A stretch of DNA of 43,588 bases from a virus: IMG/VR virus record IMGVR_UViG_3300042893_000573, positions 1-43,588 of that record; one strand, written 5' to 3'. The notes under the pieces were generated by a model, which searched no databases, was not told the origin of the DNA, and saw only the letters and a list, made by a program, of their open reading frames with translations. Below are positions 4,872 to 31,900 of the stretch, one piece after another (the first letter of the stretch is position 1; each line of letters starts with the position of its first letter). The position numbers and the translations under genes are program-made.

Positions 4872-4914
4872 AAAAAAAATCCCAAACTACCAAATAAATG
4901 TAGAATGGGATTTT
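4872..4914 (-). terminator. Rho-independent terminator of the tmRNA gene
   Basis: On the minus strand a 9-base stem (AAAATCCCA pairing with TGGGATTTT, 4906-4914 with 4876-4884) is topped by an inner CTAC/GTAG stem and runs into eight T (4879-4872). It begins at the final base of the tmRNA CCA end. Confidence 0.8.
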
Positions 4915-5346
4915 GGTGGAGATGAGGGGAATCGAACCCCTGTCTTACAAAGTAATCATAATACCAGCATATCACACGTTTAGGATAATGATTTAATCTT
5001 ACAACCATTCCAAAAGAATTGGGGCCATATGGTTAGTACAGCTTTCCACCATTCGATTTTCTAGATGAGTTTAAGGTGTGTTCGAATCACACCATCATAA
5101 CGGAGTCTCATTCTTCCTACTCGTCTGTCCGTAGTGTCGGTTCACATTCTATTTAATTGTCCCACGATGTGTGCGGGAGAGATTAGGCTGCTACAGCGTA
5201 ATCAGCACCTACGAAAGCCATAAGGTCTTCGAAGGTCATAGTTGACATTTCGTCAGTTATTGTTTTGTACAGATTTAAAGACATCTAGCACTTCTGTCTA
5301 CGTGTGGTACTACCATTCTCATTGCAATCAAGTCCATGGCATCCCC
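4914..5346 (-). ncRNA. ssrA: Transfer-messenger RNA (tmRNA)
   Basis: This 433-nt RNA would rescue stalled ribosomes and tag the unfinished protein for degradation. The 5' end GGGGATG (5346-5340) pairs with the 3' CATCTCC to give a seven-pair acceptor stem whose third pair is G-U, the alanyl-tRNA synthetase identity pair. The T arm is AGGGG, loop TTCGATT, CCCCT, and CCA is encoded at 4916-4914. An internal reading frame ends in ADYAVAA-stop, like the YALAA end of known tags. Just after the tag stop comes a hairpin, TCCCGC pairing with GTGGGA (5178-5160). A further perfect hairpin, GGTGTG with CACACC, lies at 5093-5075. The RNA is somewhat longer than the usual ~350-400 nt. It is one-piece rather than permuted. 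The pseudoknots were not resolved in detail. The gene is flanked by a baseplate-region gene upstream and its own terminator downstream. Confidence 0.95.
5183..5257 (-). other. tmRNA tag reading frame (up to 24 codons plus stop)
   Basis: Read from the likely resume region the frame gives Thr-Asp-Glu-Met-Ser-Thr and ends Gly-Ala-Asp-Tyr-Ala-Val-Ala-Ala-TAA. The hydrophobic C-terminus fits a protease-recognised tag. The resume codon is a guess from similarity to the E. coli context (AACTGACGAAATG here against CGCAAACGACGAAAAC). A later resume codon would shorten the tag. Confidence 0.65.
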
Positions 5347-10815: not shown

Positions 10816-13341
10816 TTAAACTTTAGCGTATGAATTAGAACCAATTCTATCCACAACTTTTGATACACCAGCCGTAACTTTAGCACCATCCATATGTACT
10901 GCAATTTTACCAGCAGCCATATCAGCTCTTAATGCTTTTATTTCACCAATCAATTCATCCATTTTAGCATCTTTATCCCCACCTTCCTCACCACCACCAA
11001 ATACTGCAGCTGCGCCTCCAGCAACTAATCCCAATGCCATCAAAGCAGGTAATGCTAATAAACCAGTTGCTGCAACAGCAGCTAATGCTATTGATAATAT
11101 TGTTAGAGCTCCAGCCAATCCTAAAATTGGCATAAAATTAATTTGAGATAATGCTGATATTTGTTCCGTTACTAATGGTATTACCGCAGATATAGCTCCC
11201 ATTCCAGCAGATACTCCCACTAATCCTGCTCCAAATAATATCATAGATGCACCTAATGCAGCAATACCTAATGACCCAGCCAATATAAGTGGTAATATTA
11301 CACCTATACCAGCAGCTGCTAACCCAAACATAACCAATCCAGCTGCTGCCGCTAATACTGAATCAATACTCAATCCTTGTATTAAACTCATAGCAAATGC
11401 AAATGGTACTAATGCTGCTCCTAATATTGCTATTGCTATTGCTCCTTGTATCATAGAACCGCTTGCTTTTGATAATACATATGCAATCCCGGCTAATCCA
11501 ACCAATCCAACTAATCCCTTACCAACATCTTCCCACTTAACCGTTGCAAACTCTTGGAATGCTTTAGCAGATACATAAAGTGCCACTGCTAATATTAATA
11601 ATGCGGCCGCCCCTTTAATTAAATCAGTTGTTTTTATTTTACTAAATTTATTTGCTTGGTCAGTAGGGCCTGCTTGTGTTTGTGGTGGTTTAACTCCTGC
11701 AGGTGGAGTTGGTGCTGCTGCAGGTGTTGTTGGTGCTGCACCACCAAATTTTGATTTTAAAAATACACCCATTGATTTCAAAGCACCACCAGCATCTTTA
11801 AAATTACTAGTCATTTCTTTTGCAGTTCCAATTGCTCCACTTAATCCAGATACAAGCCCACCTAAAGGTCCTGTTGTTAATGCCGTTAGTGATTCGGTAG
11901 CCGTATTAAATGCTCCATTTATCTGTCCACCTATTGTTGCTGCTTCCTCTTGAGTTGTTACCATTTTTTGTAATTCCTCAACGGATGTTCCTAATAGTTC
12001 AGCTGTTTTTTTCTTTTGGAAATAATCCATTTTATTAAACTCATCAACACCACCTAATGCATTTAGTGTTTCTTGAGTTGCTCCTGCTATATCACCTTCA
12101 TATGCTAATGCTCTTGCTCTGTCTAAATTAAGATTTTTACCAAGCATTGCACCCAATTCCATTTCTTGATTTATAGAATTTTCAAAATCAAGTAAATTAT
12201 CAGCTATTCCGGTCATAGTTTTTAAGCTAACCCCCATCTTAGCTGCTTGAACAGCTGCCTGTGCTAAATTCTTTCCGCCATCCTTACCATATAATGCAAA
12301 TGCTTCAGCAGAATCAGCCAAATCAGCCATAACTTTAGATGGTACTACTCCAGCCGTTTTTGCCATTTCTTTTGCACCATTAGCTAAATTTTGTGCAGTT
12401 TCAACACTACCACCATTCAATCTTGCAAATGATCCTGTTAATTTTGCTGCTTGTGCACCACTTATACCCATATTAGTGGCCATAAGGTTTGTATTCAATT
12501 GAGCCGCAAAGGTAGCGTTTTCCACACCACCTAATTCTTCTGCCAATCCTTTTGTTACATCTAATGCATCTTTAAATACAAAACTTAATGCAGTTCCTGA
12601 TATTTGTGCTCCTCCTAAAAATCCACCCAACTCTCTAGTAGATTTTCCCAATTCAGTCATCGCTTTACCAGCTCCTAACAATGATATTCTTGCAAATCCT
12701 CGCCAACCACTAAATAATAAACTAGCAGTAGCTAATACTCCACCAATTGATTTTTTAATTGTTTCATATGCCTTTACTTGAGAATCCAATTGGTCTCTTT
12801 GAGCTTCGGTAAGACTTGATAATCCCTTTGATTGTTCTGTTTGTGTATCTAAATTATCTAATATTTTTTGCTCTTCCGCTGATACATTAGATATTCCTGC
12901 TTTTTCTGCAGCAATTTTATCTAATATTAATTGTCTTTGTATTACATCATCTGCACTTAATTTTGCTAAATCTTGATTAAGAGATGCTATATTATTAAAA
13001 TGACCTATATGCTTTTCATTTACACTACTAAGACTATTCTGCATAGTAAGTCTTTCCCTTTCCATACCACCAAGATTGGTATATATTCCAGTTAAACTTT
13101 TTAAACCCCTTTCAGCATCAACATTTCCTTGTTTAAATTTTTGTTGTTCTGCATTTATTTCTTTTAATTTAGCAATATTTTTTGCATATTCTTTATCGGT
13201 ATCTCTAAGGGTTCTTAAATGGTCAGCGCTTAATTCTACAATGCTCGCATCTGTTTTTTGTATCTCTTTGAGATAAGATACTTTTTTAGCATCTAATGCT
13301 GCTTCTACTTTGCCTTTTCTACTATTAAAACTTTCTGCCAT
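10816..13341 (-). CDS. Tail tape measure protein
   Basis: An 841-residue protein that should set tail length and be ejected during infection. Residues ~1-200 are charged coiled coil. Residues ~200-500 are Ala- and Gly-rich helical repeats typical of tape measures (for example FARLNGGSVETAQNLANGA). A Pro/Ala/Thr linker (TTPAAAPTPPAGVKPP) lies near 545-565. Residues ~575-790 contain a cluster of long hydrophobic segments (LIKGAAALLILAVALYVSA, VGLVGLAGIAYVL, GVILPLILAGSLGIAALG, ALTILSIALAAVAATGLLAL). Such segments are usual in tape measures and may insert into the host membrane. It follows the chaperone pair and precedes the baseplate genes, the standard order. At about 0.15 nm per residue it predicts a tail near 125 nm, an inference. 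Confidence 0.88.
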   Translation of the reverse strand: MAESFNSRKGKVEAALDAKKVSYLKEIQKTDASIVELSADHLRTLRDTDKEYAKNIAKLKEINAEQQKFKQGNVDAERGLKSLTGIYTNLGGMERERLTMQNSLSSVNEKHIGHFNNIASLNQDLAKLSADDVIQRQLILDKIAAEKAGISNVSAEEQKILDNLDTQTEQSKGLSSLTEAQRDQLDSQVKAYETIKKSIGGVLATASLLFSGWRGFARISLLGAGKAMTELGKSTRELGGFLGGAQISGTALSFVFKDALDVTKGLAEELGGVENATFAAQLNTNLMATNMGISGAQAAKLTGSFARLNGGSVETAQNLANGAKEMAKTAGVVPSKVMADLADSAEAFALYGKDGGKNLAQAAVQAAKMGVSLKTMTGIADNLLDFENSINQEMELGAMLGKNLNLDRARALAYEGDIAGATQETLNALGGVDEFNKMDYFQKKKTAELLGTSVEELQKMVTTQEEAATIGGQINGAFNTATESLTALTTGPLGGLVSGLSGAIGTAKEMTSNFKDAGGALKSMGVFLKSKFGGAAPTTPAAAPTPPAGVKPPQTQAGPTDQANKFSKIKTTDLIKGAAALLILAVALYVSAKAFQEFATVKWEDVGKGLVGLVGLAGIAYVLSKASGSMIQGAIAIAILGAALVPFAFAMSLIQGLSIDSVLAAAAGLVMFGLAAAGIGVILPLILAGSLGIAALGASMILFGAGLVGVSAGMGAISAVIPLVTEQISALSQINFMPILGLAGALTILSIALAAVAATGLLALPALMALGLVAGGAAAVFGGGEEGGDKDAKMDELIGEIKALRADMAAGKIAVHMDGAKVTAGVSKVVDRIGSNSYAKV

Positions 13342-13356
13342 TTAGTATTATATAAA

Positions 13357-13587
13357 TTAATCCTCGTAATCAGGATCGTATTTTTTCATCAAATCATGAA
13401 ACTCTCTAGCTTGCTTTTGTATATCAACCATCTTATCTACCAATGGTTTTGGCATTTGTTTGTTTTGCTTTGCCTTTTGAAGTGCTTGATTTATTGCTTG
13501 AGATTTTAGTCCATCAAAAAAATTATCAGTAAAATTTTTTAATGAATCAAAAATACCTTCATTTTTTAACTTTTTGTTAATTGACAT
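13357..13587 (-). CDS. Small helical protein between chaperone genes and tape measure
   Basis: A 76-residue, very charged, almost wholly helical protein (MSINKKLKNEGIFDSLKNF, then AINQALQKAKQNKQMPK and DIQKQAREFHDLMKKYD), ending PDYED. It has no membrane segment. It lies 15 bases before the tape measure start and 21 bases after an ATATTTATA motif, following a terminator, so it probably heads the tape measure-baseplate transcript. The family is not recognised. A role in tail assembly is suggested only by its place. Confidence 0.75.
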   Translation of the reverse strand: MSINKKLKNEGIFDSLKNFTDNFFDGLKSQAINQALQKAKQNKQMPKPLVDKMVDIQKQAREFHDLMKKYDPDYED

Positions 13588-13624: not shown

Positions 13625-13654
13625 AAAAAAGTGAGGATATTAACGCATCCTCAC
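13625..13654 (-). terminator. Rho-independent terminator after the tail chaperone frame
   Basis: On the minus strand GTGAGGAT (13654-13647), an 8-base loop, ATCCTCAC (13638-13631) and then six T (13630-13625). The stem overlaps the last codons of the 61-codon frame, whose stop is in the loop. Confidence 0.85.
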
Positions 13655-13825
13655 TTTAGGTCCTTTAGATTTGCTTTGAGCCTTTTTCATCTCTTCAGCC
13701 TCTTTTTTCTTTAAATCTATTAGTTTTTGAAAATAAAATCTTCTTAAATATACAGGCATATGGTAAACTTCAGACCAAGTAAATCCATTACTGAATTGTA
13801 CCATTTCCCAAATTTGATTATGCAA
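13640..13825 (-). CDS. Probable frameshifted C-terminal part of a tail assembly chaperone
   Basis: A 61-codon frame beginning at a TTG (13825); there is no ATG until codon 8 (13804). The product is FSNGFTWSEVYHMPVYLRRFYFQKL followed by a Lys/Glu-rich helix, resembling small proteins that follow gp26-like genes in T4-like phages. The frame stays open upstream of the TTG, reading ILPSDYRIQ, to a stop that lies upstream of a run of seven T inside the end of the gp26-like gene. A +1 or -2 shift at that run would fuse it to the gp26-like protein, giving a product of about 337-338 residues. This mimics the G/GT chaperone pair of lambda. Its position between tube and tape measure genes is the right one. 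Separate translation from TTG is possible but less attractive. Confidence 0.7.
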   Translation of the reverse strand: MHNQIWEMVQFSNGFTWSEVYHMPVYLRRFYFQKLIDLKKKEAEEMKKAQSKSKGPKVRMR

Positions 13826-13838
13826 TTGAATCCTATAA

Positions 13839-14654
13839 TCAGATGGAAGGATAAAAAAAGTTAAGCCCGAAGGGTATATCTAACGCCTCCGTATCGCCAG
13901 TTATTTCTGAAGTAAATTGGAATTTCATATCCAAATCAGGTGATATTTCCTTTATATATGCTCTAAATGCTTTTGTATCCTTTGCTAAAAACTCATTAAG
14001 AACCCATCTATTGATAAATCCTCTATCAGTATTACCATCTACAGAAACAATTATATACTTCAATCTAGTTGTTACATCAAAAGAAGATTGTGCATTTTTA
14101 TTTAATTTTTCTAAAGCCTGTGTTTCTTTTGTAATTTCTTGCTCATCACCATGAGTTAATAATTTAAATTCAATTACTTTTCCGTTTGAAGGAATAGTAA
14201 ATTTAAATCTATTATTTGAGTTTAAGGCCTTATAATCAATATCTTTTGTTTTAACTTTAGATAAATCAATTACTACATTTTGCGTTTCTAATGTAAATGG
14301 GTCTGTCATTTCTATTTCATAATCAGCACCATACCCTAAAATACGAGTTGCCATTAAAATAGCATTTTTATCACCAATAAGAATATCATTTGGATTAACA
14401 CCAGGCTCCACTACAACCGATTCAAATAATTTATCCAAAACAGTACCTTTCTTAATAAGAGTTTGGTTTGCTAAAATATCCTCCTCTCTAGCTGTCATAT
14501 ACTTTATTTCACAAGTACCTTTTCTAAGAGGATGTCCTTCAGGATATGCTAATCCTTGAGATGGTAATTCGATTGTTTCTGTTGGGAAATCAAATTGCTT
14601 AGTTTGTGCAATTGGTGTTTCCGTTGGGGTGTTTTTTATACTAATTTCTGCCAT
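13839..14654 (-). CDS. T4 gp26-like tail assembly/baseplate hub protein
   Basis: A 271-residue protein. Key stretches are FPTETIELPSQGLAYPEGHPL (residues ~23-43), CEIKYMTAREEDILANQTLI (~48-67), VNPNDILIGDKNAILMATRILGYG (~87-110), then a beta domain around FKFTIPSNGKVIEFKL. These are hallmarks of the phage family named after T4 gp26. The family is described as a baseplate hub component in T4, but in many phages the gene lies between the tube and tape measure genes, where tail assembly chaperones are encoded. That is the case here. The final codons carry a TTTTTTT run eight codons from the TGA stop region, and the +1 frame beyond is open into the next gene (see the slippery-site entry). An ATATTTA-type motif lies 28 bases upstream. 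Confidence 0.85.
   Translation of the reverse strand: MAEISIKNTPTETPIAQTKQFDFPTETIELPSQGLAYPEGHPLRKGTCEIKYMTAREEDILANQTLIKKGTVLDKLFESVVVEPGVNPNDILIGDKNAILMATRILGYGADYEIEMTDPFTLETQNVVIDLSKVKTKDIDYKALNSNNRFKFTIPSNGKVIEFKLLTHGDEQEITKETQALEKLNKNAQSSFDVTTRLKYIIVSVDGNTDRGFINRWVLNEFLAKDTKAFRAYIKEISPDLDMKFQFTSEITGDTEALDIPFGLNFFYPSI
13853..13859 (-). promoter_or_regulatory. Candidate ribosomal frameshift site (seven T)
   Basis: The zero frame reads AAC TTT TTT TAT CCT TCC ATC TGA. Skipping one T, or slipping back two, gives TTT TTT ATC CTT CCA TCT GAT and runs without stop into the 61-codon frame. A stop (TAG) in the shifted frame 33 bases upstream limits the overlap to this stretch. A -1 shift does not reach that frame. 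Confidence 0.55.
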
Positions 14655-14763: not shown

Positions 14764-15252
14764 TTAGAATTCAAGAATTGCGTAATCGTAAGATAATGTT
14801 AATTCAATTGTAGCTGGTTCGTTAGAATCGAATGCTAAATCACCAAAGTTTGCTTGTTGAATAAATGCACCTTTAATTTTCCATTGTTCAATTTTATCAC
14901 CAACTGGTCCTAACATATAGATATCGATATCTTTTTTGTAGAAATCAGCGTATCCATCTCTACCAGTAATTGATTCATGTGATAATCTTACCCACTCCAT
15001 TACCGCTTGTGCACCTGATGGTACAATTGGGTCATAAAGAGTGATTGTGATATCTTGCCACTCACCTTTACCTTTCAACTTTCTCTTAACGTTGATATGG
15101 TCTAAAGTGATTGTTTCAAATTGAATTGTAGGTCTATTTGCTGCCTTAATCATATATGAAGGGATATTATCTATCTCCATCACATATCTATTTTTCATCT
15201 TCGGTTCGAAGTTCGTATAGAACATCTTATCAAACTCTAATATTTCTGCCAT
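14764..15252 (-). CDS. Tail tube protein (T4 gp19-like)
   Basis: A 162-residue protein, almost the same length as T4 gp19 (163). It forms the inner tube through which DNA passes. Typical parts are FEPKMKNRYVMEIDNIPSYM (~14-33), IKAANRPTIQFETITLDHIN, a GKGEWQDITITLYDPI strand, WVRLSHESITGRDGYADFYK and a C-terminal EPATIELTLSYDYAILEF. These match the gp19 family fold (beta sandwich with an alpha-loop that stacks rings). It follows the sheath gene in transcription order, as in T4. It has its own candidate promoter motif upstream and a strong terminator downstream, so it is probably made in large amounts independently of its neighbours. Confidence 0.93.
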   Translation of the reverse strand: MAEILEFDKMFYTNFEPKMKNRYVMEIDNIPSYMIKAANRPTIQFETITLDHINVKRKLKGKGEWQDITITLYDPIVPSGAQAVMEWVRLSHESITGRDGYADFYKKDIDIYMLGPVGDKIEQWKIKGAFIQQANFGDLAFDSNEPATIELTLSYDYAILEF

Positions 15253-15303: not shown

Positions 15304-17628
15304 TTATGCGTTAAAACTTGCTCCAGTTGGTAAGATGTTGAAATCTATTACGATAAATTCCGCTGTCTTAGCCGGTTGTAAGAAAATTTGTCCTGCTAAT
15401 ATGTTTCTATCAATTACATCAGGTGTGTTGTTCGATTCATCCATAACAACTCTGAATGCGTATAAACCTTGTCTTTGTTGAACTGCCTCTAAGTAAGGGT
15501 TCACAGTGTTTAAGAATCTATTACGAGTTGTAGATGTATTTTGTTCAAACACTAAGTAACGAGATGTTGAAGCGATAAACTTCTTAAGAACGATAAGTAA
15601 TCTTCTAACATTGATTCTATCTAAAGCTGATGCCTTATCTTGCAATGTCTTCTGTCCGAATGCTACAATACCTTGTCCAGGAAATGCTGCGATTGGGTTT
15701 ACTTTGTTCTCATATAGAGTATCTCTTTCAGAGTGTGTTAATCTATTCAATACACTAACTGCTCCAGTGATACCACCTCTATTCAAACCAGCAGGTGCGA
15801 ACCATTCTGCTGCTAATCTATCGTTAGAAGCGAATACAGCCGGCATCAATACTGATGGTGGAACTGAAGTTAATTTGTTTGTATTACTATCGATTGTTTT
15901 AACCCAAGGATAATAAGTACCAACATAGTTAGAATCTATAGCGTTTGCATTTTCAGTAGCCGTTGTGATAGTTGCATCAATATCAGTAAAGTCAGCGATA
16001 TAGAAACAATCTTGTCTATCTTCAACCATATCAATTGTTCTTTGAATAATTGCTTGGTGTGATTGGAAAGTAATACCAGGAGTTGTTACCATATTGATAT
16101 CCCACTCATCAGGATTAGAAATTGCGTTAATTGCTTTTGTGTATGCCAATGTACCATCAGATACAGAGGTTGAACAATCAAATCCTTGCGTATTTGCTGC
16201 TGATATATTTGAACCTAAATTAATTTTAACTGCCGGATTCATACCATCATAACCACCTTGGAATGCTAATATAAATTGTCTTTTAACCATATCAGAACTT
16301 GCTGAACCAGTCATTTGATAATTTAATTGAGAATCAAATGCGAATGTTACGTTAGAACCAGTTTGTGCATTTTGAGGAATTGATTTAGCGTAGTTAGCGT
16401 TATCCATTGATACTCCTTCAGTTTCAAAATCAAATCCAGAATAATATAATGGAGAAGATGATGAGTTTCCAGTTGATTTAGTTTGATAAACTACTGCAGG
16501 TACTTTAATAGCCTGTGCATTATCAGTTGCTTCAATTGGGTTTGTATATGCTCCATGTCCAAATGGTGCTGCTGAAATTGGGAATGAACCTGCTTCAGAT
16601 ACAACTACTCTAATGTATTTTGATTTATTTGAGTAATCACCATTTTCAGTAATTTTACCATCAGAATCTATTTCAATAAATCTATCACCGATTTTTCTAG
16701 CTATATAGTTAGGAGAAGCAGGGTCTAAATTACAATTATTAAATGTTTCAATTACACTCTTTCTCTTATCAGTATCAGAATAAGCTCTTACAGTTACAGT
16801 AAATGTAGAATAATCAGTTGCTCCATCTTCACCAGCTGCTTTAACATTTGAAATACCAATTTTGTATTTTTTGTTATAAACATCACCATGTCCTAATGTT
16901 GCGAATTGGAATAAATCGTATCTTTCACCACTAATCAATTGAGATTTAACAAATGGAGTTGTAGCTTCAGTATATGCTGGTGCTAATGTAGTACCACTAT
17001 AATCTTGAGTTGGTAAAGCTGCTACAGTAATAACTGTGTTATCCACAGTAGAACCAGTGTATGCTGCTGCTACGTTTTCAAAATATGTGTAAGTGTATGC
17101 TTTTTTAGCTCCAAACGGAGATTCACCAAATACATCTGATAAATCATTTGCTGCTGTTGCTAAAATTGATGCGGATACCCAACCAATCCCAGATCCAGAT
17201 AATAAGAATGAACCATCGGTTACATTATTACTAGCAACAATAGTTCCAGTGAAACCATAGTCTTGGTAACCAGTTTCAGTAGAGTAAAGTACTCCAATTA
17301 ACTTTTCACCTAAACCAGCTGAACTACTAGCAAAAATACCTAAAGGTGCTGATTGTTGGTAACCACCAATACCAGCTACTCTTACGATAGTTGCTTGTCC
17401 AGCTTCTCTTAAATAGTTTTGTACTGCATATTCAGTATAATAAGTTCCATCAGGTGTTCCGAAGGTGTCTTCGAATTCTGATTGCGTTCTCACAATTGTA
17501 GGAACGAATGCAGGTCCTTGCTTAAAAGGTCCTATAAATGCTGCTCCAATTTCACCAATTCCTTGCGTTAAGAAGGAAAGGTCATTTTCTCTTGTGAATA
17601 CACCGGGTGATACGATTCTTTCTGCCAT
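15304..17628 (-). CDS. Contractile tail sheath protein (T4 gp18-like)
   Basis: A 774-residue protein, larger than T4 gp18 (659). The N-terminus (AERIVSPGVFTRENDLSFL, then GAAFIGPFKQGPAFVPTIV and FEDTFGTPDGTYYTEYAVQ) is the conserved sheath start. The C-terminal third is equally typical: an APAGLNRGGI stretch, YENKVNPIAAFPGQGIVAFG, RINVRRLLIVLKKFIASTS and AEFIVIDFNILPTGASF. The middle (~110-480) is Ser-, Thr- and Gly-rich beta structure and accounts for the extra length; it should lie on the outer face. The sheath contracts to drive the tube through the host envelope. A large inverted repeat and a motif copy occupy the 152-base gap before it. Confidence 0.94.
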   Translation of the reverse strand: MAERIVSPGVFTRENDLSFLTQGIGEIGAAFIGPFKQGPAFVPTIVRTQSEFEDTFGTPDGTYYTEYAVQNYLREAGQATIVRVAGIGGYQQSAPLGIFASSSAGLGEKLIGVLYSTETGYQDYGFTGTIVASNNVTDGSFLLSGSGIGWVSASILATAANDLSDVFGESPFGAKKAYTYTYFENVAAAYTGSTVDNTVITVAALPTQDYSGTTLAPAYTEATTPFVKSQLISGERYDLFQFATLGHGDVYNKKYKIGISNVKAAGEDGATDYSTFTVTVRAYSDTDKRKSVIETFNNCNLDPASPNYIARKIGDRFIEIDSDGKITENGDYSNKSKYIRVVVSEAGSFPISAAPFGHGAYTNPIEATDNAQAIKVPAVVYQTKSTGNSSSSPLYYSGFDFETEGVSMDNANYAKSIPQNAQTGSNVTFAFDSQLNYQMTGSASSDMVKRQFILAFQGGYDGMNPAVKINLGSNISAANTQGFDCSTSVSDGTLAYTKAINAISNPDEWDINMVTTPGITFQSHQAIIQRTIDMVEDRQDCFYIADFTDIDATITTATENANAIDSNYVGTYYPWVKTIDSNTNKLTSVPPSVLMPAVFASNDRLAAEWFAPAGLNRGGITGAVSVLNRLTHSERDTLYENKVNPIAAFPGQGIVAFGQKTLQDKASALDRINVRRLLIVLKKFIASTSRYLVFEQNTSTTRNRFLNTVNPYLEAVQQRQGLYAFRVVMDESNNTPDVIDRNILAGQIFLQPAKTAEFIVIDFNILPTGASFNA

Positions 17629-18192: not shown

Positions 18193-21100
18193 TTATTTTT
18201 TTGCTAATTCTTCTCTCAATTCTTTAATTTCAGCTCTTGCATCATCCAATTCTACTTTTAATTCTTTGATTGCGGCAATTGCTAAAGTTACCATTTTATC
18301 ATATCGAACTGTTTTATAATCTTCCTTATTAGTTTCTTTATGCAATGGGTCATAAAATTCAGAATCAGGATCAGAATATCCTTGCTTATCATTTATATCT
18401 TTAGCTCCTTGCAATACAACACCCATAGGCCATACCGCTTCTACTTCTTGCGAAATCAATCCAAAGTCTTTATCTCCTTCTCTCTTAGCCCATTTTTCTT
18501 CAGATAATTTATTCCATTCAAACGTATATGCTCCAATACCTGCTATGATATCTAATGCGTTTGGAATTGGTTCTATGTTCTGCTTTAATCTTCTATCAGA
18601 ATAATAAGCCACAACGTCACCAGTTACATAAAGAGGTCCATTGATTTGTGCATAAGCAACAGGGTTACCCAATACCCAATAGTAAGGACTGTGCCCAACA
18701 CCATTATAACCATTACCAAAGTGCATATTTGATGTACTCCAGTCGATAACTCTACCCATTACTTGGAAGGTATCCCAATTACCATACATCGATAATGTAT
18801 TATATCCGTTTACAGTTTCACCAATAAGTCTTCTACTATCGTTACCATTAAATCTTAATACAGACGCAAGATTTACATAGTTCATATTAGAATAATCATC
18901 AGGATTTACATAATATCCACCATTGTTTCTATCGTAATATGCATCAGCGTAGTGATTACCTCTAGTAGTACAGTTGTACGCTAGAGTATCATCCAGCTCC
19001 TCAATCTTAAATCCAGTTATTTCAGCTTGTCCACTATATCCACTATACAAATAGTTATGCAACCAACCAACTTGCGCCCATTTAGTAGGTCCACCCCAAT
19101 GTCCATAATCACAACCAGAAGGTCCTACAGTCATTGAATAATACGTCCAAGAAGATGGTGGTACACCAACAAACCAATATGGATTACCCCAACCACCATT
19201 ACCATGGTCACCAAAGTTCCAAGTAGATTGTCTATATGATAAATAACAGAAAGGATTACCAGACACACTTCGCATCCAACAAGATACTTTATAACTTCTA
19301 GCAGTATCAATAGGGATTCTACCTCTTTCAACTAAACCTTCCCATGCAGAGGGTCCTCTGAATGTATATGCTCCTGCCGGTCCATCACTAACGTTTGTCC
19401 AGTTACCCTCCATTGAAAATGCACCATCAGTACCAAATGAGTTTCTTGTCATATATTTACCACCTTCAGTAAACATACCATGCATTCTAGTACCGGTTGA
19501 TGTATTTGTGGAATATGCTCCACCTACTCTAAGTTGGTTTAATGTAGATAAATCATTTGGTTGAATGTTATATCCAGAGTCATCATAATCATAGAAAATT
19601 CTACTACGAACATTTGATGGCATGTACATTTCAGAACTACTATTCACATATCCTCTTTGTACGTTACCCGTTACAAATTCAATATAAGAACCACCCGTAC
19701 CTAACGATAGATAGTTTGGAGAATAAATACCAGGTCTTCCCCATGCTGCGCCCAATCTAACTTCACCTTGTCCATTACCTTCAGCATTGGTTACTATAAT
19801 ACCACTATCATTTGTAGTAAATTTAACTCTATTTGATGAACCACCCTGCATATTAAATCCACCATTTGCAGAATCTACATAATATGCTGTATTATCAGCG
19901 TCACGGAATATAGGTGCATCCATACCAGATGCTGAATATTGGTAACCATGTGTCCAAAAATATCCTGTATAGTTGGATATCATTGTTGTTATTCTACTAC
20001 CGGCATTATATCCTGTCCAACCTGGCATTGCTACACCACTACCTTGCCCAACCCAGAATGTTTCAGCTCCTACAGTTGAGTAATTACCAAACCCTTGTCC
20101 ACTTTGAGAACCTTTATTGAAATAGAATTCACCCCATCCTCTAGCATTCTCTTGGAATATCCAGTTATTATTTTCAGATACATCAGATGCTAAAAAAGTA
20201 CCACCATCATTTTGTTGTCTTACATATCCTGCTACTTGTAATACATTAAATTGTGATGTACCCTGTGGGTCAGCAAAATATACTGTATTATCTCTATCAT
20301 AGAATCTATATCCATAATAATCTCTACCAATATACAAATCACTACCAGTTGTTAATTCAAGTCTAGTTGTGTTTGAACCTCTATCGTAAATTGTAAATGA
20401 AGTTGATGCTGCCGAACCCAATGACCAAGTTCTTGCCGTAGAAATAATATCCACCCAAGTATTTGCGTTTGGTGATTGGAATGCTGCTACTTGGTTTAGA
20501 TTTCTATTAACGTGAATTCCATATCCAGGTTGAGAAGTACCAAATCCAATATTATCATTAAAATAAATGTATGAATCAGGATACACAGTTCCATCGGATG
20601 TATAAACACCACTCAATGTCATAGTATCTGTAACTATATTTCTACCACCTTCACCTTCAGCAAATACAGTTACTTTAATTCTATATGAATTTGCTGCGTT
20701 ATCTCTATTTGCTATTACAATTCTATATCTACTACCTGTCCAAACAACATCACCAAATGCAATACCATATCTAGTCTGTCCACCCACATCCACAACTCTA
20801 CTTTCATTTGCATATTGAGCATTACCAGGATTTAAACCTAAATAATATCTTTTTGCAACTCTACCAGGTCTATTAGCGTAGTTATATGAAGTAGTACCTT
20901 CAACTTCTATCCAGCCCCAAAATCCCGGATCGAATTCTAAGTTTGCTTTTTGATTTGAAGTGTTTCCAAATCCTAATGTAAAATTTCTGATACCATAAGA
21001 ACCCATCTTAAATACACCAGCTAATTCTAAGTTATTTAAATAAGATGTGGAGTTATTAATGTAATAAGATGTGCCACCAGCATAAACCGTACCAGTTGCT

Positions 21101-24100
21101 CTGATATTACCATTTGCGTAAATTCTAAATGTTTCAGTTTTACCATTTACAGTTTCAGAACCACCATTTTGGAATATATGGTCTGTGTAAGTTCCATAAA
21201 CCATATAATCACCATTAGTACCATCGTTTGCACCGCCACCAACATATGTTCTAAATGCAATATATCCACCAACATTATTATCCGTAAATAAGATACCACC
21301 ATAAGTACCAGTATCAGCTCTATTACGGAATTCTAAATAGTTATCACCACTTCCATTCTCAACTCTTAACAAACTAGCTCCATTGTACCCCCTAGCACCA
21401 GATGGAGTACCACCAGAAATTAATTTCACACCGCCAAAATATGATGTACCATTTACGGCCATTTTATAACCCTGGTCACCACTAAATCCTAAGTTAAAAT
21501 TACCATTACTTCTTAAGAACAATAATGGAGATGTTACACCATTTGCGTTGTTTGAAGAAGTTCCCCACCAAAAACCACTGCCAGCATCAGATGCAGAATA
21601 ATCAGTTATTGAAAAATGTACAGATTCACCATATGTATTTGAAGCGCCGCCTGTATATTCTTTAAATCCAATAAATGCATTCACACCATTATCAGTATAT
21701 AGAGTACCCTGCATTATTCCCGATGAAGCGCCGCTTGTACGGAATTCCATATATTGGTTTCCAGATGAATCTAATCTAATATAAGAGTTTGCATTGCTTG
21801 ATGTTGCGCCAGATGGAGTACCAGTACTTAATGTCAATATACCACTATTTGCTAATGTCATATATTGAGTACCAGCTACATTCCAAAGATGTTGAGTATT
21901 GTTAGAATCAATTTGATATGATGTATATGCGCCAGAATTATTTACTCTAGTTTGGAATCTCATCTTTGCACGGCTGGTATTGTTGTCCACAGTTTCTATG
22001 TACAATCCACCACCATCCATATCACTATAAGTGTAATATGAGTTACCACCACTTGACCATCTTAAACCACCTACCGCTTGTATAGTAGCTTGTGCAGTGC
22101 TTCCTACAGATCCAGCAATCAAACTACCCCTTACTTCCATATTTCCGTTATCACGCATTATAACGTTGTTGAATGCATCGTTTGAACTATTCCAACGGAA
22201 ACCATGTGAGGGAGCGCCAGTAAAATATGCATTATCTGTCAACATAGCCTTACCATCAAGAGTAAGTCTAGGTATTGTTACAACAGCACCACTAACAGTT
22301 AAGAAATCTGAACTTATATTTGTAAATGTAATATTAGAACCGAAATCATTATTAAAATAGAATCTGCTATTACTAGCATTTAAAATCATATTACCAGTAC
22401 TATCACTTCTAATCATACCCCTTTGAGTACCAGCAAAAGTGAAGTAAATCATACTTTGTGCACCTGATGGATTCTCTAATTGTAATATAGAGTTTCCGGC
22501 CGCTATTGTACCATTTGCGTAGTTTATTACTACTCTACTATTATGTGTTGTAACACCACCAAATGTTGTTGCACCAGTTACTGATAAAGCTGGCATTGTC
22601 ACCCCACTATTTATTTTTGTCAAACTATATGTAGCGGATGGTGAAGACAATCCTGCTGTTAAGTTTTCACTATAAGCTGTCCATTGATTTGGATTATGTC
22701 CATAGTTTTCTACTCTAACCGCAAATGTACTCGAACCACCAATATTTAAAGATGGAATAAATCCTTCTAAATAAGTGTAGTTTGTATCTGCTGCTAAACG
22801 GAATTGAGTAAAGTAACCACCATCGTAGTTTTCAATAGTTCCAATTTGTAATGTATTTACCCAATCTTTATATACCGTAATAACATCCTGTGCGGGCCCT
22901 AAGTAGTTACCAGTTGATGCTATATAAATTTTAGCTCCACCTCTAGCCCCATAACCACCACTTGCTAAACCACTTCTTGCTATTCTATACCAACCACTAT
23001 ATGCTGTTGAACCAACCGCAGTTAATGAACCCTCACTACCACCATATACAACTCTACCACCATTTGCAGTCAATCCATTTGTAATAGTTGCTGCGTTGAA
23101 TGTTGGTGATGAATCCGTTCTAACGTTTTGGTCCATTGCCGCTGCGTAAGAATATGTTGTAGCATCCATTAATCTTTTCCAAGCACCATAAGATGATAAT
23201 CCACCACCACTACCTCGTATCCAAAGGTTATCACCATCCGTAAATCCTAATTGACGAGTACCTCCACCAGATGAATCACCCCATTGTTGGAATGTTAATA
23301 CACCATGATATGTACCACCATCTGCCAACCCATCAGTACTATTTGCTAAAAAATCTACTCTAAGTTTTCTTCCACCAGTCTGAGGGCCTGTTACTACATT
23401 TCTAGTATCGAATACCGTAAGTTGGTCTGATGTTGTTGCTGATGATGCATTACCAACCAATGGACCTGTAATTTGGTTAAATGTAACGTTATCAGTTGTT
23501 CTAACATTTTGGTTCATTATGTAAACTTCAGTTGCTCCCTGACCCGTATCTATTGTACCACTTATTACAATATTACCAGAACTTACATTTAAATTACCAG
23601 CACTAATAGTTAAACCACTACCAAAGGTATATAATCCACCACCATCACCAGAATTGAAAGCTAAGTTTCCACCAGTTGCTTTTACAGTCCAAGAACGAGT
23701 ACCAGATTGGTCAAATCCTAATCTATCACCGCTTGAAACTAATATACCAGCATCTCCCGTACTATTTACGTTAGATGAGTTTCTTAATATACCATTAATA
23801 AATGTATAATCATCATGATACCATCTATCATTTGCTTCATCCCAATAGAATGCTTTTGTTGCTGCGTTACCTCTCTTAACTTCTATACCAGCATTTTCAG
23901 TTGGTGCAGTTGATGCTCCAATATCTGCGTTTAATGTGATGATATTATCACCTACATTTAATGTTGTTGTATTAATATATGTTGTTGTACCACTTACAGT
24001 AAGGTCACCACTAATTGTAGCGTTACCAGTTACAGTTAATGTACTACCATCGAATCTTAAATTTGCTTCTACCGTTCCGTTTGGTGCTGAACCATTTAAT

Positions 24101-26886
24101 GTTATTACACCATTATCAGTATTACCAGTTAATGCTAATAATCCAGATGAACCAGAAGTTCCGCTTGTGCCAGATGTTCCTGATGTACCGCTTGTGCCAG
24201 ACGTACCTCTTGTTCCCGAACTTCCACTACTACCACTCGAACCAGAACTTCCCGAACTTCCACTACTACCACTCGAACCAGATGTACCTCTAGAACCAGA
24301 ACTTCCTGAACTGCCGCTTGTACCAGAAGTTCCTGATGTGCCACTCGTACCAGAAGTTCCTGATGTTCCACTTGAACCGCTTGAACCAGAACTTCCCGAA
24401 CTACCGCTTGAACCACTACTTCCAGATGAACCAGACGTACCACGACTTCCTGATGAGCCGCTTGTACCAGATGTTCCTGATGACCCGCTTGTGCCAGATG
24501 TTCCTGATGTACCACTCGTACCAGAAGTTCCTGATGTGCCACTCGTACCAGAAGTTCCAGAACTTCCCGAAGAACCACTACTACCACTACTACCACTAGA
24601 ACCACTACTACCAGAAGCTCCACTAGTACCAGAAGACCCGCTACTACCACTCGAGCCGCTTGACCCACTAGTACCACGAGTTCCCGAACTACCACTTGAA
24701 CCGCTTGTACCACTCGTACCAGAAGTTCCCGAAGAACCACTTGAACCAGCACTTCCCGATGTACCAGATGAACCAGAACTTCCCGATGTGCCACTTGTAC
24801 CAGAAGTTCCCGAAGAACCACTACTACCAGCACTTCCACTATTACCAGTTCTACTAAATCCTACTATTAATTGTGCACCATTTGTTGGTAATGAACCAGC
24901 TATATAAGAAACAGGTATTTTATAATAACCAACCCCAACTACAACTGCTCCAGTTACTTGAAATTGATTTACTATTGTTCCACTATCTCTACTTACTAAT
25001 GAAATAACACCTCTAGCAGTTGTTGTTGTAGAATCATCCCAAGTATCATACCATGCTGTTTGAGATGTTCCACCTAAATCAGTATTATCTATATAAATAA
25101 ATCCTACAGACGATATTGTTGCATTATTATATTTAACAATACCAGTGCCAGGATCTGTATCGGTTATTGTTGTTGAGAAATTATATTTTATACCACCAGT
25201 TTGTCCAGAAGAACCAGAAGAGCCACTAGTACCACTTGTACCACTTGAACCAGAAGTTCCTGAAGAACCACTACTACCACTAGAACCACTACTACCACTT
25301 GCTCCTGTTGCCCCACTTGTTCCCGATGAACCGCTTGTACCAGACGTACCTCCAGTTCCTGGCGTACCACTACTACCGCTTGTGCCGCTTGTACCACTAC
25401 TACCACTAGTACCACTACTACCACCAGCTCCCGTTATACCAGAACTTCCCGAAGAACCACTACTTCCACCACTTCCAGAACTTCCCGAAGAACCACTACT
25501 TCCCGAAGAACCACTTGTACCACCACTACCAGAACTTCCTGATGAACCTCCAGCTCCTGTTATACCACTACTTCCCGATGAGCCCGATGTTCCACTACTT
25601 CCAGAAGTTCCCGATGTACCACCACTACCTCCAGTACCTTGTAAACCCTGTGCTCCGCTAGAACCACTACTTCCGCTACTACCACTTATTCCTGATGAAC
25701 CGCTTGTACCACTACTACCACTACTACCACTACTTCCGCTTGTACCACGAGTTCCTGATGTACCACTTGTGCCAGAAGTTCCCGAACTGCCGCTCGTACC
25801 ACCACTTCCAGAAGTTCCACTGCTTCCACTACTTCCAGACGAACCACTACTTCCGCTTGTACCTCTTGAACCACTACTACCACTACTTCCCGATGAGCCC
25901 GATGAACCACTACTTCCACTTGTACCTCCACTACCAGATGTACCACTACTTCCACTGCTTCCACTACTACCACTGCTTCCACTTGTGCCCCCACTACCAG
26001 AAGTTCCACTGCTTCCGCTACTTCCAGATGAACCACTACTACCACTTGTACCAGAAGTTCCTGAAGACCCGCTACTACCGCTTGAGCCACTTGAACCGCT
26101 TGTACCAGATGTACCAGATGTACCAGATGTTGCTGCTGCAAATCTTCTACCTATTCTACCAGTTGTTGTATTTAAAACCAATACTTCATTTGTTGAAGTA
26201 TCATTTGGTATTGAATCTCCTGTTACTAATATTGAACCACTAACAGATAAACTACCAGTTATTTGTTGAATATCATTTGTTGCATCTCCAAATTTATTTG
26301 AACCACTTGAGTAAATTATTGAAGAAGAAATAAGTGTTGTTTGAATTGTTGTTGCTAATATCTTACCATCAACATACAAATCATTTTTAAATGTAGCGCT
26401 ACCAGATACGATTAAAAAACTATCTACAGAAACTCCTGTATTAACTGTTAATCCTTTATTTGGAGAAATTTGTGCTATTGCGGAACCTGATTTTAATCTA
26501 TCTATATCACCAATTGATGCTGCTGATATATTTGTTAATCCACTACCATCTCCTTGAAATAATGATGCAGTTATAGAACCACTAATTTGTGTATTTCCTT
26601 TTATAGAAACTAAAGTTGATGTTACACTTACATAATTAGAACCACTTGCTATTTGAGATATATTTGTTAAGCCACGACCATCACCAACAAAAGAACCACT
26701 CATCGAACCAGTAAATTGAGAAGCACTAATAATATTAGCTTTTATATTTTGTGAAGCTGTTAAATTTCCAATAATACTAACGTATTCTGTTGAAAATAAT
26801 CCTACACTACTTCCACTTACTTTAAGTTCAACTAAACTTTTACTTACTAAATTTAATCCGTTTGGGTTCGTTCCTATATAGCTCAT
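18193..26886 (-). CDS. Giant collagen-like tail fibre with C-terminal S74 self-cleaving chaperone
   Basis: A 2897-residue fibre. Residues 1-250 hold beta modules (GDGxGLTNI; SSSIIYSSGSNKFGDATNDIQ) shared with the other giant fibre. Two collagen-like blocks of Gly-(Ser/Thr)-Ser triplets occupy ~253-560 and ~681-915, separated by a beta module (YNFSTTITDTDPGTG; AWYDTWDDST). After the second block comes a cap (LALTGNTDNGVITLNGSA), then ~1800 residues of beta-rich shaft. The shaft has four copies of a motif like DADNTAYYVDSANGGFN (also DRDNTVYFADPQG, DYDDSGYNIQPND, DRNNGGYYVNPDD). The end is a peptidase S74 chaperone: YYSDRRLKQNIEPI with the expected Ser2763-Lys2768 dyad, FGLISQEVEAVWP, YDKMVTLAIAAIKEL and a coiled coil. 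S74 domains assist trimer folding, then cut themselves off. The likely role is host receptor binding. Trimer formation and cleavage are inferred from the family. Confidence 0.93.
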   Translation of the reverse strand: MSYIGTNPNGLNLVSKSLVELKVSGSSVGLFSTEYVSIIGNLTASQNIKANIISASQFTGSMSGSFVGDGRGLTNISQIASGSNYVSVTSTLVSIKGNTQISGSITASLFQGDGSGLTNISAASIGDIDRLKSGSAIAQISPNKGLTVNTGVSVDSFLIVSGSATFKNDLYVDGKILATTIQTTLISSSIIYSSGSNKFGDATNDIQQITGSLSVSGSILVTGDSIPNDTSTNEVLVLNTTTGRIGRRFAAATSGTSGTSGTSGSSGSSGSSGSSGTSGTSGSSGSSGSSGSSGTSGSGGTSGSSGSSGSSGSSGTSGSGGTSGSSGSSGSSGSSGSSGSRGTSGSSGSSGSSGSSGTSGSGGTSGSSGTSGTSGTSGTRGTSGSSGSSGSSGTSGSSGISGSSGSSGSSGAQGLQGTGGSGGTSGTSGSSGTSGSSGSSGITGAGGSSGSSGSGGTSGSSGSSGSSGSSGSGGSSGSSGSSGITGAGGSSGTSGSSGTSGTSGSSGTPGTGGTSGTSGSSGTSGATGASGSSGSSGSSGSSGTSGSSGTSGTSGSSGSSGQTGGIKYNFSTTITDTDPGTGIVKYNNATISSVGFIYIDNTDLGGTSQTAWYDTWDDSTTTTARGVISLVSRDSGTIVNQFQVTGAVVVGVGYYKIPVSYIAGSLPTNGAQLIVGFSRTGNSGSAGSSGSSGTSGTSGTSGSSGSSGTSGSAGSSGSSGTSGTSGTSGSSGSSGTRGTSGSSGSSGSSGSSGTSGASGSSGSSGSSGSSGSSGSSGTSGTSGTSGTSGTSGTSGTSGTSGSSGTSGTSGSSGSRGTSGSSGSSGSSGSSGSSGSSGSSGTSGTSGTSGTSGTSGTSGSSGSSGSRGTSGSSGSSGSSGSSGSSGSSGSSGTRGTSGTSGTSGTSGTSGTSGSSGLLALTGNTDNGVITLNGSAPNGTVEANLRFDGSTLTVTGNATISGDLTVSGTTTYINTTTLNVGDNIITLNADIGASTAPTENAGIEVKRGNAATKAFYWDEANDRWYHDDYTFINGILRNSSNVNSTGDAGILVSSGDRLGFDQSGTRSWTVKATGGNLAFNSGDGGGLYTFGSGLTISAGNLNVSSGNIVISGTIDTGQGATEVYIMNQNVRTTDNVTFNQITGPLVGNASSATTSDQLTVFDTRNVVTGPQTGGRKLRVDFLANSTDGLADGGTYHGVLTFQQWGDSSGGGTRQLGFTDGDNLWIRGSGGGLSSYGAWKRLMDATTYSYAAAMDQNVRTDSSPTFNAATITNGLTANGGRVVYGGSEGSLTAVGSTAYSGWYRIARSGLASGGYGARGGAKIYIASTGNYLGPAQDVITVYKDWVNTLQIGTIENYDGGYFTQFRLAADTNYTYLEGFIPSLNIGGSSTFAVRVENYGHNPNQWTAYSENLTAGLSSPSATYSLTKINSGVTMPALSVTGATTFGGVTTHNSRVVINYANGTIAAGNSILQLENPSGAQSMIYFTFAGTQRGMIRSDSTGNMILNASNSRFYFNNDFGSNITFTNISSDFLTVSGAVVTIPRLTLDGKAMLTDNAYFTGAPSHGFRWNSSNDAFNNVIMRDNGNMEVRGSLIAGSVGSTAQATIQAVGGLRWSSGGNSYYTYSDMDGGGLYIETVDNNTSRAKMRFQTRVNNSGAYTSYQIDSNNTQHLWNVAGTQYMTLANSGILTLSTGTPSGATSSNANSYIRLDSSGNQYMEFRTSGASSGIMQGTLYTDNGVNAFIGFKEYTGGASNTYGESVHFSITDYSASDAGSGFWWGTSSNNANGVTSPLLFLRSNGNFNLGFSGDQGYKMAVNGTSYFGGVKLISGGTPSGARGYNGASLLRVENGSGDNYLEFRNRADTGTYGGILFTDNNVGGYIAFRTYVGGGANDGTNGDYMVYGTYTDHIFQNGGSETVNGKTETFRIYANGNIRATGTVYAGGTSYYINNSTSYLNNLELAGVFKMGSYGIRNFTLGFGNTSNQKANLEFDPGFWGWIEVEGTTSYNYANRPGRVAKRYYLGLNPGNAQYANESRVVDVGGQTRYGIAFGDVVWTGSRYRIVIANRDNAANSYRIKVTVFAEGEGGRNIVTDTMTLSGVYTSDGTVYPDSYIYFNDNIGFGTSQPGYGIHVNRNLNQVAAFQSPNANTWVDIISTARTWSLGSAASTSFTIYDRGSNTTRLELTTGSDLYIGRDYYGYRFYDRDNTVYFADPQGTSQFNVLQVAGYVRQQNDGGTFLASDVSENNNWIFQENARGWGEFYFNKGSQSGQGFGNYSTVGAETFWVGQGSGVAMPGWTGYNAGSRITTMISNYTGYFWTHGYQYSASGMDAPIFRDADNTAYYVDSANGGFNMQGGSSNRVKFTTNDSGIIVTNAEGNGQGEVRLGAAWGRPGIYSPNYLSLGTGGSYIEFVTGNVQRGYVNSSSEMYMPSNVRSRIFYDYDDSGYNIQPNDLSTLNQLRVGGAYSTNTSTGTRMHGMFTEGGKYMTRNSFGTDGAFSMEGNWTNVSDGPAGAYTFRGPSAWEGLVERGRIPIDTARSYKVSCWMRSVSGNPFCYLSYRQSTWNFGDHGNGGWGNPYWFVGVPPSSWTYYSMTVGPSGCDYGHWGGPTKWAQVGWLHNYLYSGYSGQAEITGFKIEELDDTLAYNCTTRGNHYADAYYDRNNGGYYVNPDDYSNMNYVNLASVLRFNGNDSRRLIGETVNGYNTLSMYGNWDTFQVMGRVIDWSTSNMHFGNGYNGVGHSPYYWVLGNPVAYAQINGPLYVTGDVVAYYSDRRLKQNIEPIPNALDIIAGIGAYTFEWNKLSEEKWAKREGDKDFGLISQEVEAVWPMGVVLQGAKDINDKQGYSDPDSEFYDPLHKETNKEDYKTVRYDKMVTLAIAAIKELKVELDDARAEIKELREELAKK
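24140..24844 (-). repeat. Collagen-like triplet repeat block 2 of the S74 fibre
   Basis: About 78 tandem 9-base units encoding Gly-Ser/Thr-Ser, with occasional Arg, Ala or Leu. Synonymous codon changes keep the DNA from being perfectly repetitive. Assembly here may be unreliable. Confidence 0.9.
25205..26130 (-). repeat. Collagen-like triplet repeat block 1 of the S74 fibre
   Basis: About 100 Gly-Ser/Thr-Ser triplets with interruptions such as GAQGLQGTGG and GITGAGG. The same type of block recurs at 24140-24844 and 29430-32630. Confidence 0.9.
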
Positions 26887-28986: not shown

Positions 28987-31900
28987 TTATGCCATATTTC
29001 TACCTACTAAGAATCCGTAATAAGTACTACCTCCATTATAAGTATAGAACACCAAAATATCCGTTCCACTTACAGTCAATGTTGGTTGTGCACCAGATGT
29101 CCATCTTACTATACCAGGCCATGCGATTGTATATGCTCCACCATTTGTTAATGCTAATGTAAATCCAAATGCGTTTGATGCTGGTGCATCTGTGAATGAT
29201 ATTGTTGAGTTTCCTGTTACAGTTCTAGTAAAGTTATTTGCTGTTATTAAACTAATAGCCGTTGCTCCACTACCAGAACCTAACGATGAGTATGTTTCTC
29301 TAAATGTAGTTGGTGCTATATGACCAGTTACTCCTAAAATACTACCATCAAATGTTAAGTTAGATTCAACTTGTCCACTTGCTGATGAATTTATATATGT
29401 TAATATACCATTATCAGTTGTACCAGTTAAAGATAGATATCCAGAAGTTCCTGATGTACCACTTATACCAGAAGTACCAGACGATGAAGAAATTCCAGAT
29501 GTTCCTGAAGTTCCATTAATACTTGTTCCGGATGTACCACTACTTCCAAAGAATGTTCCATCAAATCCAGAAGTTCCAGAAGTTCCCGATGTTGATGAAA
29601 GACCAGATGACCCAGACGAACCACTTATACCAGAAGTTCCTGAAGAACCAAAGAAAGTTCCATCAAATCCAGAAGACCCAGACGAACCACTTATACCAGA
29701 AGAACCACTACTTCCAGAAGTTCCAGATGAACCACTTGAACCAGAAGTTCCTGATGAACCACTACTTCCAAAGAATGTTCCATCAAATCCAGAAGTACCA
29801 CTACTACCACTACTTCCTGAAGAGCCACTAGCCCCACTACTACCCGAAGAGCCACTTGTACCATCTTGCCCAGATGTACCACTACTACCAAACATAGTAC
29901 CATCTAAACCAGAAGTTCCAGAAGAACCCGTTGTACCAGAAGACCCAGATGATGATGTTAATCCAGAAGAACCAGAAGAACCATTACTTCCAGAAGTTCC
30001 CGATGTACCACTACTACCAAAGAATGTTCCGTCCAAACCAGATGTACCGGATGAACCAGAAGACCCAGATGTTGATGTTAATCCAGAAGACCCAGACGAA
30101 CCATCTTGTCCAGAAGTTCCTGATGAACCACTACTTCCAAAAAATGTACCATCAAATCCGCTTGAACCAGACGAACCAGAACTTCCTGATGAACCTCCTA
30201 TACCAGAAGACCCAGACGAACCATCTTGTCCAGAAGTTCCTGATGTACCACTACTTCCAAACATAGTTCCATCTTGTCCAGAAGTTCCTGATGAACCAGT
30301 TGTGCCAGAAGAACCAGATGAACCAGAAGAACCTGATATTCCCGAAGAACCACTTGTACCATTTTGCCCAGAAGTTCCACTACTTCCAAAGAATGTTCCA
30401 TTTAATCCACTTGAACCAGAAGTTCCAGATATTCCCGAAGAACCAGATATTCCTGAAGAGCCACTACTACCACTACTTCCGTTCACACCAGACGTTCCAG
30501 ACGAACCAAAGAATGTTCCATCTAAACCAGAAGTTCCCGATGAACCACCACTACCGCTTGTTCCTGTTGTGCCAGATGAACCACTACTTCCATTCATTCC
30601 AGAAGTTCCGCTTGTTCCATCTGAGCCAGATGTACCACTTGTCCCATCTATACCAGCAGAACCCGTAGTTCCTGAAGTACCATATGAACCCGTAGTTCCT
30701 GATGTACCATCAGTTCCAGTTGAACCAGACGAGCCACTACTTCCACTACTTCCCGAAGTTCCATTTATTCCACTAGTTCCAGATGAGCCTGATGAACCTG
30801 TTGTACCATGTGAGCCCGTTGTTCCTGAAGACCCCGTTGTTCCTGAAGAACCAGAAGTTCCATCCGAACCAGAAGTTCCATCCGAACCAGAAGTCCCGCT
30901 TGTTCCGTTTTGTCCCGAAGAACCACTACTTCCAGATGAACCATTTGAGCCGGTTGTACCACTACTTCCACTACTTCCACTCGAGCCAGAAGAACCATCT
31001 ATTCCCGAAGTTCCATTAGAGCCTGTTGTGCCAGATGAACCTGACGTTGCTGATGTACCACCACTTCCAGAAGTTCCGCTTGAACCGCTTGTACCACTAC
31101 TACCAGAAGAACCATTAGTTCCCGATGTACCATCTATACCCGAAGTTCCTCCACTTCCAGAAGTTCCAGATGTACCGCTTGAACCAGCGGAGCCCGTTGT
31201 ACCAGCGGAGCCCGTTGTACCTGCCGTACCTGTTGTTCCCGATGTACCCGAAGTTCCACCACTACCAGACGTTCCACCACTACCAGATGTTCCCGATGTT
31301 CCTGCTGTGCCAGAACTTCCCGAAGAACCACTACTACCGCTACTACCAGAAGAACCGCTCGTACCACCACTACCAGATGTTCCCGATGAACCACTACTAC
31401 CACTCGTACCAGCACTTCCCGTAGTTCCCGATGAACCAGTTGTACCACTTGTACCACTACTACCGCTTGTGCCAGAAGAACCACTTGTACCACTACTTCC
31501 AGAAGACCCCGTTGTACCCGATGTTCCAGATGTGCCAGCTGTTCCTGAACTACCGCTTGTACCAGAAGTTCCATCAGAGCCAGATGTACCACTACTTCCA
31601 GAAGACCCGCTACTTCCACTACTACCGCTTGAACCAGTAGAGCCAGATGAACCAGAACTTCCTGATGAACCGCTTGAACCAGAACTTCCTGAAGAACCGC
31701 CACTACCCGTTGTACCTGCCGTACCCGTTGTACCAGACGAACCCGTAGTTCCCGATGTACCAGATGACCCACTACTTCCACCACTTCCAGAAGTTCCTGA
31801 TGTACCTGCCGTACCACTACTACCGCTTGAACCAGATGTACCAACTGTACCAGAAGACCCGCTACTACCACTACTACCACTACTACCACTTGAACCAGGC

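Follow-up and report, generated by a model that had tools for sequence, protein, structure and literature searches.

The window, the whole stretch of 43,588 nucleotides analysed here (IMG/VR virus record IMGVR_UViG_3300042893_000573), carries on its minus strand a tail module comprising genes for the sheath, the tube, a T4 gp26-like protein, a 76-codon protein and the tape measure. The features of the module and of the gp26-like locus are as follows.

15304-17628, minus strand: sheath gene.
14764-15252, minus strand: T4 gp19-like tube gene, upstream of the gp26-like gene.
13839..14654, minus strand: T4 gp26-like gene, encoding the short form (TAC-N) of 271 aa, with an ATG start and a TGA stop.
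13853..13859, minus strand: T7 run of the putative slippery site, AAC TTT TTT TAT.
13839..13841, minus strand: 0-frame TGA that ends the short form, four codons past the Phe-Phe pair.
13640..13852, minus strand: +1-frame ORF2, the predicted TAC-C domain of the long form, with 70 codons plus a stop codon (13640-13642) and no conserved start codon.
13640..14654, minus strand: predicted frameshift product of 337 aa, of which 267 are in frame 0 (up to FF) and 70 in frame +1.
13357-13587, minus strand: 76-codon gene, separating the gp26-like locus from the tape-measure gene.
10816-13341, minus strand: tape-measure gene, downstream of the gp26-like gene.

Elsewhere on the minus strand of the window lie a tmRNA gene at 4914-5346 (ARAGORN, tag DEMSTMTFEDLMAFVGADYAVAA; Rfam RF00023, 75.5 bits, E 1.1e-27), a very large 3564-codon ORF at 28987-39681, and a 2897-codon protein at 18193-26886 that, by eye, displays long collagen-like GSSGTSG tracts in its first third and a C-terminal end resembling a tail-fibre chaperone domain.

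The 3' end of the gp26-like gene reads GGG CTT AAC TTT TTT TAT CCT TCC ATC TGA in the 0 frame. In the +1 frame the same region, ACT TTT TTT ATC CTT CCA TCT GAT TAT AGG, remains open down to 13640, and the predicted junction peptide of the +1 fusion is GLNFFILPSDYR. The preliminary description of the locus located the seven-T run at the end of the gp26-like frame, and its coordinates are exact. It also reported a 61-codon frame without an ATG that is open upstream to the run; this ORF begins in the program-made list at the TTG at 13825-13823, a start that is not conserved, and the +1 frame is indeed open through the run. The anticipated product of about 337 residues agrees with the sum of 267 and 70 for a +1 shift (338 for a -2 shift). 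The proposed position between tube and tape measure is accurate as to the gp19-like tube gene upstream and the tape-measure gene downstream, but the 76-codon gene intervenes before the latter. This AT-rich DNA has many runs of seven Ts, with 20 in the window against approximately 38 expected from shuffles, and the case for the site therefore rests on conservation. The features that go beyond chance are the fixed place of the run, its conservation among relatives and the out-of-frame coding, likewise conserved, downstream of it.

Homologues were collected by protein similarity to the gp26-like part only, a procedure that places no selection on the junction. IMG/VR and cultured phages supplied 172 distinct loci. 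All of them have an open +1 frame, which extends at least 150 nt beyond the stop in 168 and reaches the end of the contig in the remaining four; a -1 frame of at least this length is found in only eight. The sequence TTT TTT T occupies the site in 163 of the 172 loci (TTT TTT TGG in 95, TTT TTT TAC in 67, TTT TTT TAT in one, and nine variants), while in-frame T7 elsewhere in the gp26-like gene occurs five times in 45172 codons. The spacing from FF to the stop is 3-6 residues in all +1 loci. Both the T7 site and the +1 ORF are kept in 80/80 of the closest relatives, and the fusion product has the same shape in 23 aligned relatives. In cultured phages with as little as 25-28% identity (alignment A1) the +1 frame still overlaps the gene end at these Phe-Phe codons; the examples are Flavobacterium phage immuto, Microcystis phage Mel-JY01, GXN1, SP-15 and LIS04, together with the metagenomic genome LR756508 and, more distantly, RM378. 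Conservation of the T run and of the out-of-frame overlap in related phages, which the preliminary description named as a check, is thus observed. Searches using SP-15 and RAS14 as queries revealed no further distant relatives. In LR756511 (L086, 3769-3923) an ATG belonging to the downstream ORF itself overlaps the stop (TAATGG), a layout that possibly represents a return to separate genes.

Start codons are poorly maintained in the +1 frame. Most of the 80 closest relatives have CTC, CTT or TTA where the window has the TTG at 13825. Within the +1 frame as far as 75 nt beyond the stop, 65 of the 172 loci contain no ATG, and 21 contain neither ATG nor GTG nor TTG. Selection on ORF2 was assessed from codons 6-16 past the T run in 115 gap-free loci, an interval that is beyond the 0-frame stop and mostly ahead of any start codon. 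The pN/pS ratio is 0.45 in the +1 frame and 0.53 for the gp26-like part, while the two remaining frames give 0.96 and 2.38. As judged by these ratios, purifying selection acts on the ORF2 codons that lie ahead of any start codon.

The short form matches PHROG 150, ‘baseplate hub’, with an E value of 6.7e-10 (4.3e-11 on the contig), and scores 22.8 bits against PF12322, just below the cut-off of 24.5, which is exceeded by a relative (L162). The PF12322/PHROG 150 family includes both gp26 and gp51 of T4, and the short-domain match makes the window gene a member of this family, although not of the two-gene arrangement seen in T4. The window contains a single copy of the family, as does each of seven cultured phage records with the overlapping frame, in contrast to the two copies in T4. 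The two T4 proteins are paralogous to each other (E 1.6e-20); a C-terminal domain makes gp51 the longer. ORF2 matches the -1-frame tail encoded by cyanophages (E 3e-6), which in turn matches the C-terminus of gp51 (E 4e-11), each by a single hhalign comparison; direct comparison of ORF2 and gp51 profiles is weak (E 0.1 and 0.023). Through the cyanophage intermediate, ORF2 is thus homologous to the C-terminal domain that is present in gp51 and absent from gp26. Both the profiles and the intermediate were required, as the fused alignment did not match the single T4 gp26 or gp51 sequences, and ORF2 alone yielded no significant match to PHROGs or to predicted viral structures.

The two domains were folded separately. 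For the short form, modelled with AlphaFold2 (pLDDT 91.4), the top-ranked solved structure was the HK97 tail assembly chaperone 2ob9, with a Z score of 5.1 over 75 residues and an rmsd of 4.1; this was the sole structure above Z 5, and values below 8 can reflect a common arrangement. Foldseek returned an E value of 1.1 for the same model. The ORF2 domain is modelled as three helices (pLDDT 83.7), the first of which spans residues 7-22. Because this helix begins directly after the junction, translation starting at the TTG or at the internal ATG would truncate it. A likeness to the G/GT chaperone pair of lambda, suggested in the preliminary description from position, holds on the same ground and also on the modest HK97 chaperone match and the homology of the extension to the gp51 C-terminus.

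Only a single frame reads the codon that precedes the Phe pair. Across 170 loci of the +1 group this codon ends in C (100 loci), G (50) or A (20) and never in T, although approximately 92 Ts would be expected from codon usage (87 with a narrower background). When one locus was retained per lineage of less than 60% identity (n=33), no T was observed against 15.9 expected (log10 P -11.6). A T before TTT TTT would create the standard -1 heptamer T_TTT_TTT, and the combination of an X_XXY_YYZ heptamer with a -1 frame is lacking at the +1 loci. Conversely, each of 69 distinct loci of the cyanophage type, relatives of P-SSM2, carries a T at this position, giving the site NNT TTT TTC (NNT TTT TTC/TTT for syn9, P-SSM2 and HTVC008M); here the -1 frame is open for at least 120 nt in 66/69 loci and the +1 frame in 0/69. 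The jumbo phages XacN1 (L090, 3738-3992) and RAS14 (L091, 3729-3983), whose genes belong to this family, also have a T before Phe-Phe and a -1 layout at T_TTT_TTT; in their annotation the extension is a small ORF of its own. The missing T in the +1 group could be due in part to avoidance of eight-T runs. Such avoidance does not explain the T in 69/69 of the -1 relatives, and the pelagiphage HTVC008M, which is on the -1 side, has eight Ts at the site. It seems reasonably likely that the direction of the shift has switched between -1 and +1 within one homologous chaperone gene, where T4 has a duplication instead, and that the base before Phe-Phe sets or guards this direction, a T allowing tandem -1 slippage and the other three bases favouring +1 when a U follows.

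Taken together, these comparisons make it highly probable that one gene encodes both the short and the long form of a T4 gp26/gp51-type tail assembly chaperone through a +1 frameshift at T7. This reading is supported by the conserved site, by out-of-frame coding that is under selection and has no start codon, and by the domain homologies. The majority of ribosomes would end at the TGA, generating the short form, while in some the P-site Phe-tRNA on UUU would re-pair one base downstream, skipping one base to produce the long form. If the system works as lambda gpG/gpGT does, the tape-measure protein would be coated by numerous copies of the short form and a few of the long, whose C-terminal domain would recruit tail-tube subunits. 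Occurrence of the shift in vivo, how often and by what steps it happens, and the roles of its products as chaperones are inferred. Regarding stimulatory elements, no conserved RNA structure was detected upstream or downstream of the site (window fold z -0.9, no consensus pairs), and no clear Shine-Dalgarno-like stimulator is evident at it. In part of the +1 group a short CCC-loop-GGG stem immediately preceding the T run seems to be favoured (Fisher p 0.004, a value that ignores relatedness). Approximately 30 nt upstream of Phe-Phe, G-ending codons are over-used in this group at positions -10 and -9, with 115 and 87 Gs against 26 and 19 expected.

The preliminary description allowed either a +1 or a -2 shift to join the gp26-like protein to a C-terminal chaperone domain, and the 172 loci support this junction. 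A -2 shift at the T run would append the same C-terminal domain but insert an additional Phe (338 aa, NFFFILPS in place of NFFILPS), it is known from the tail genes of phage Mu (PMC5009743), and the P-site tRNA could re-pair at -2 on the T7 in 168/172 loci. Re-pairing at +1 is possible in all 172, however, and in the four loci where -2 is impossible the architecture is the same: TTT CTT TGG in immuto (L082), TTT CTA TTC in LR756508 (L084), TTC TTT CGT in GXN1 (L085) and TTC TTT TAC in L120. The relatives thus favour +1, and a -2 shift is very unlikely. The same loci bear on transcriptional slippage, in which RNA polymerase would lose one U or gain two at T7 and ordinary translation would then yield the fusion. 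Conservation of a homopolymer run is consistent with this mechanism, as is the avoidance of T before the run, which would also cap its length. The absence of a long T run from L082, L084, L085 and L120 speaks against slippage as a mechanism common to the group; in these loci and in those with CTT TTT TGG, which have the same layout, the runs comprise only 3-6 Ts. Moreover, seven Ts is short for efficient transcriptional slippage, and the -1 relatives contain a standard ribosomal heptamer, T_TTT_TTC. Slippage is accordingly given very little credence here.

A further alternative is that ORF2 is a separate small gene with a non-ATG or internal start, an annotation that some cultured phages carry (ORFs of 36 aa and 39 aa, for instance). 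An AGGA lies five bases upstream of the TTG at 13825 in the window, an ATG is available within WEMVQ, and in LR756511 the downstream ORF could start at the ATG over the stop. This explanation is nevertheless difficult to reconcile with the variability of the TTG and with the 21 loci that lack ATG, GTG and TTG up to 75 nt past the stop. It also conflicts with the start of conserved coding and of helix 1 ahead of the candidate start codons, and it leaves the pattern of bases before the site unexplained; a separate gene is therefore hardly credible. We retain the +1 ribosomal frameshift as the preferred reading.

Frameshifting in tail-chaperone genes is classical, with -1, -2 and +1 versions on record, and a 2016 review regarded T4 as an exception to its conservation (PMC5009743). 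The non -1 shifts in tail genes of phage Mu (-2) and HSTV-2 (probably +1) described in the same source agree with the earlier view that such events are rare but known (PMC5009743). For gp26-like genes, where the preliminary description knew of no described case, frameshifting had been proposed before: PMC12846349 and PMC10885494 cite Vladimirov, Gautam and Davidson 2022 for a frameshifted TAC-N/TAC-NC of T4-like phages, of the gp26/gp51 type. The gp26 and gp51 proteins of T4 resemble the predicted products in their homologous short and C-terminal domains and in the existence of short and long forms; they differ in that T4 uses two paralogous genes, while phages of the window type would use one gene and a frameshift. 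The abstract of Vladimirov et al. 2022 reportedly names T4 genes 26 and 51 and is said to describe frameshifting as kept in several T4-like groups. Separate short and long chaperone genes are attributed to some T4-like phages in PMC10885494, and the Adele paper gives poly-T sites in T4-like TAC-N genes as -1 signals (PMC12846349), in contrast to the +1 layout of the window locus. The gp26 locus of cyanophages and pelagiphages (syn9, P-SSM2 and HTVC008M) encodes the same two domains with an overlap at the same Phe-Phe codons, but in the -1 frame and with a T before Phe-Phe.

The chaperones of lambda (gpG/gpGT) and HK97 (gp13/gp14) share with the window locus the position between tube and tape measure and the pairing of a short with a frameshift-extended form. 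They lack detectable sequence similarity to the window protein, whose TAC-N is larger, and lambda uses a -1 heptamer. At the +1 site of prfB (CUU UGA) the A-site codon is a stop, while at window-type sites it is a sense codon (UGG, UAC or UAU), with the stop 3-6 codons later. To our knowledge, +1 sites independent of an A-site stop codon are rare in bacteria and their viruses. PMC10885494 places UUU among the next most slippery P-site codons for +1 shifting after CUU, the codon of the prfB site. Although frameshifted chaperones of T4-like phages have already been described, the +1 mode and the correlation of direction with a single base provisionally look new. The same short and long pair would thus be made in three ways, from two genes in T4, by -1 frameshifting in cyanophages and by +1 frameshifting in a large environmental T4-like group. 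In cultured phages (immuto, Mel-JY01 and SP-15) the predicted +1 product is mis-annotated as an unrelated small protein. The two frameshifting groups, which differ at one base beside the same two codons, would constitute a natural experiment on frameshift direction.
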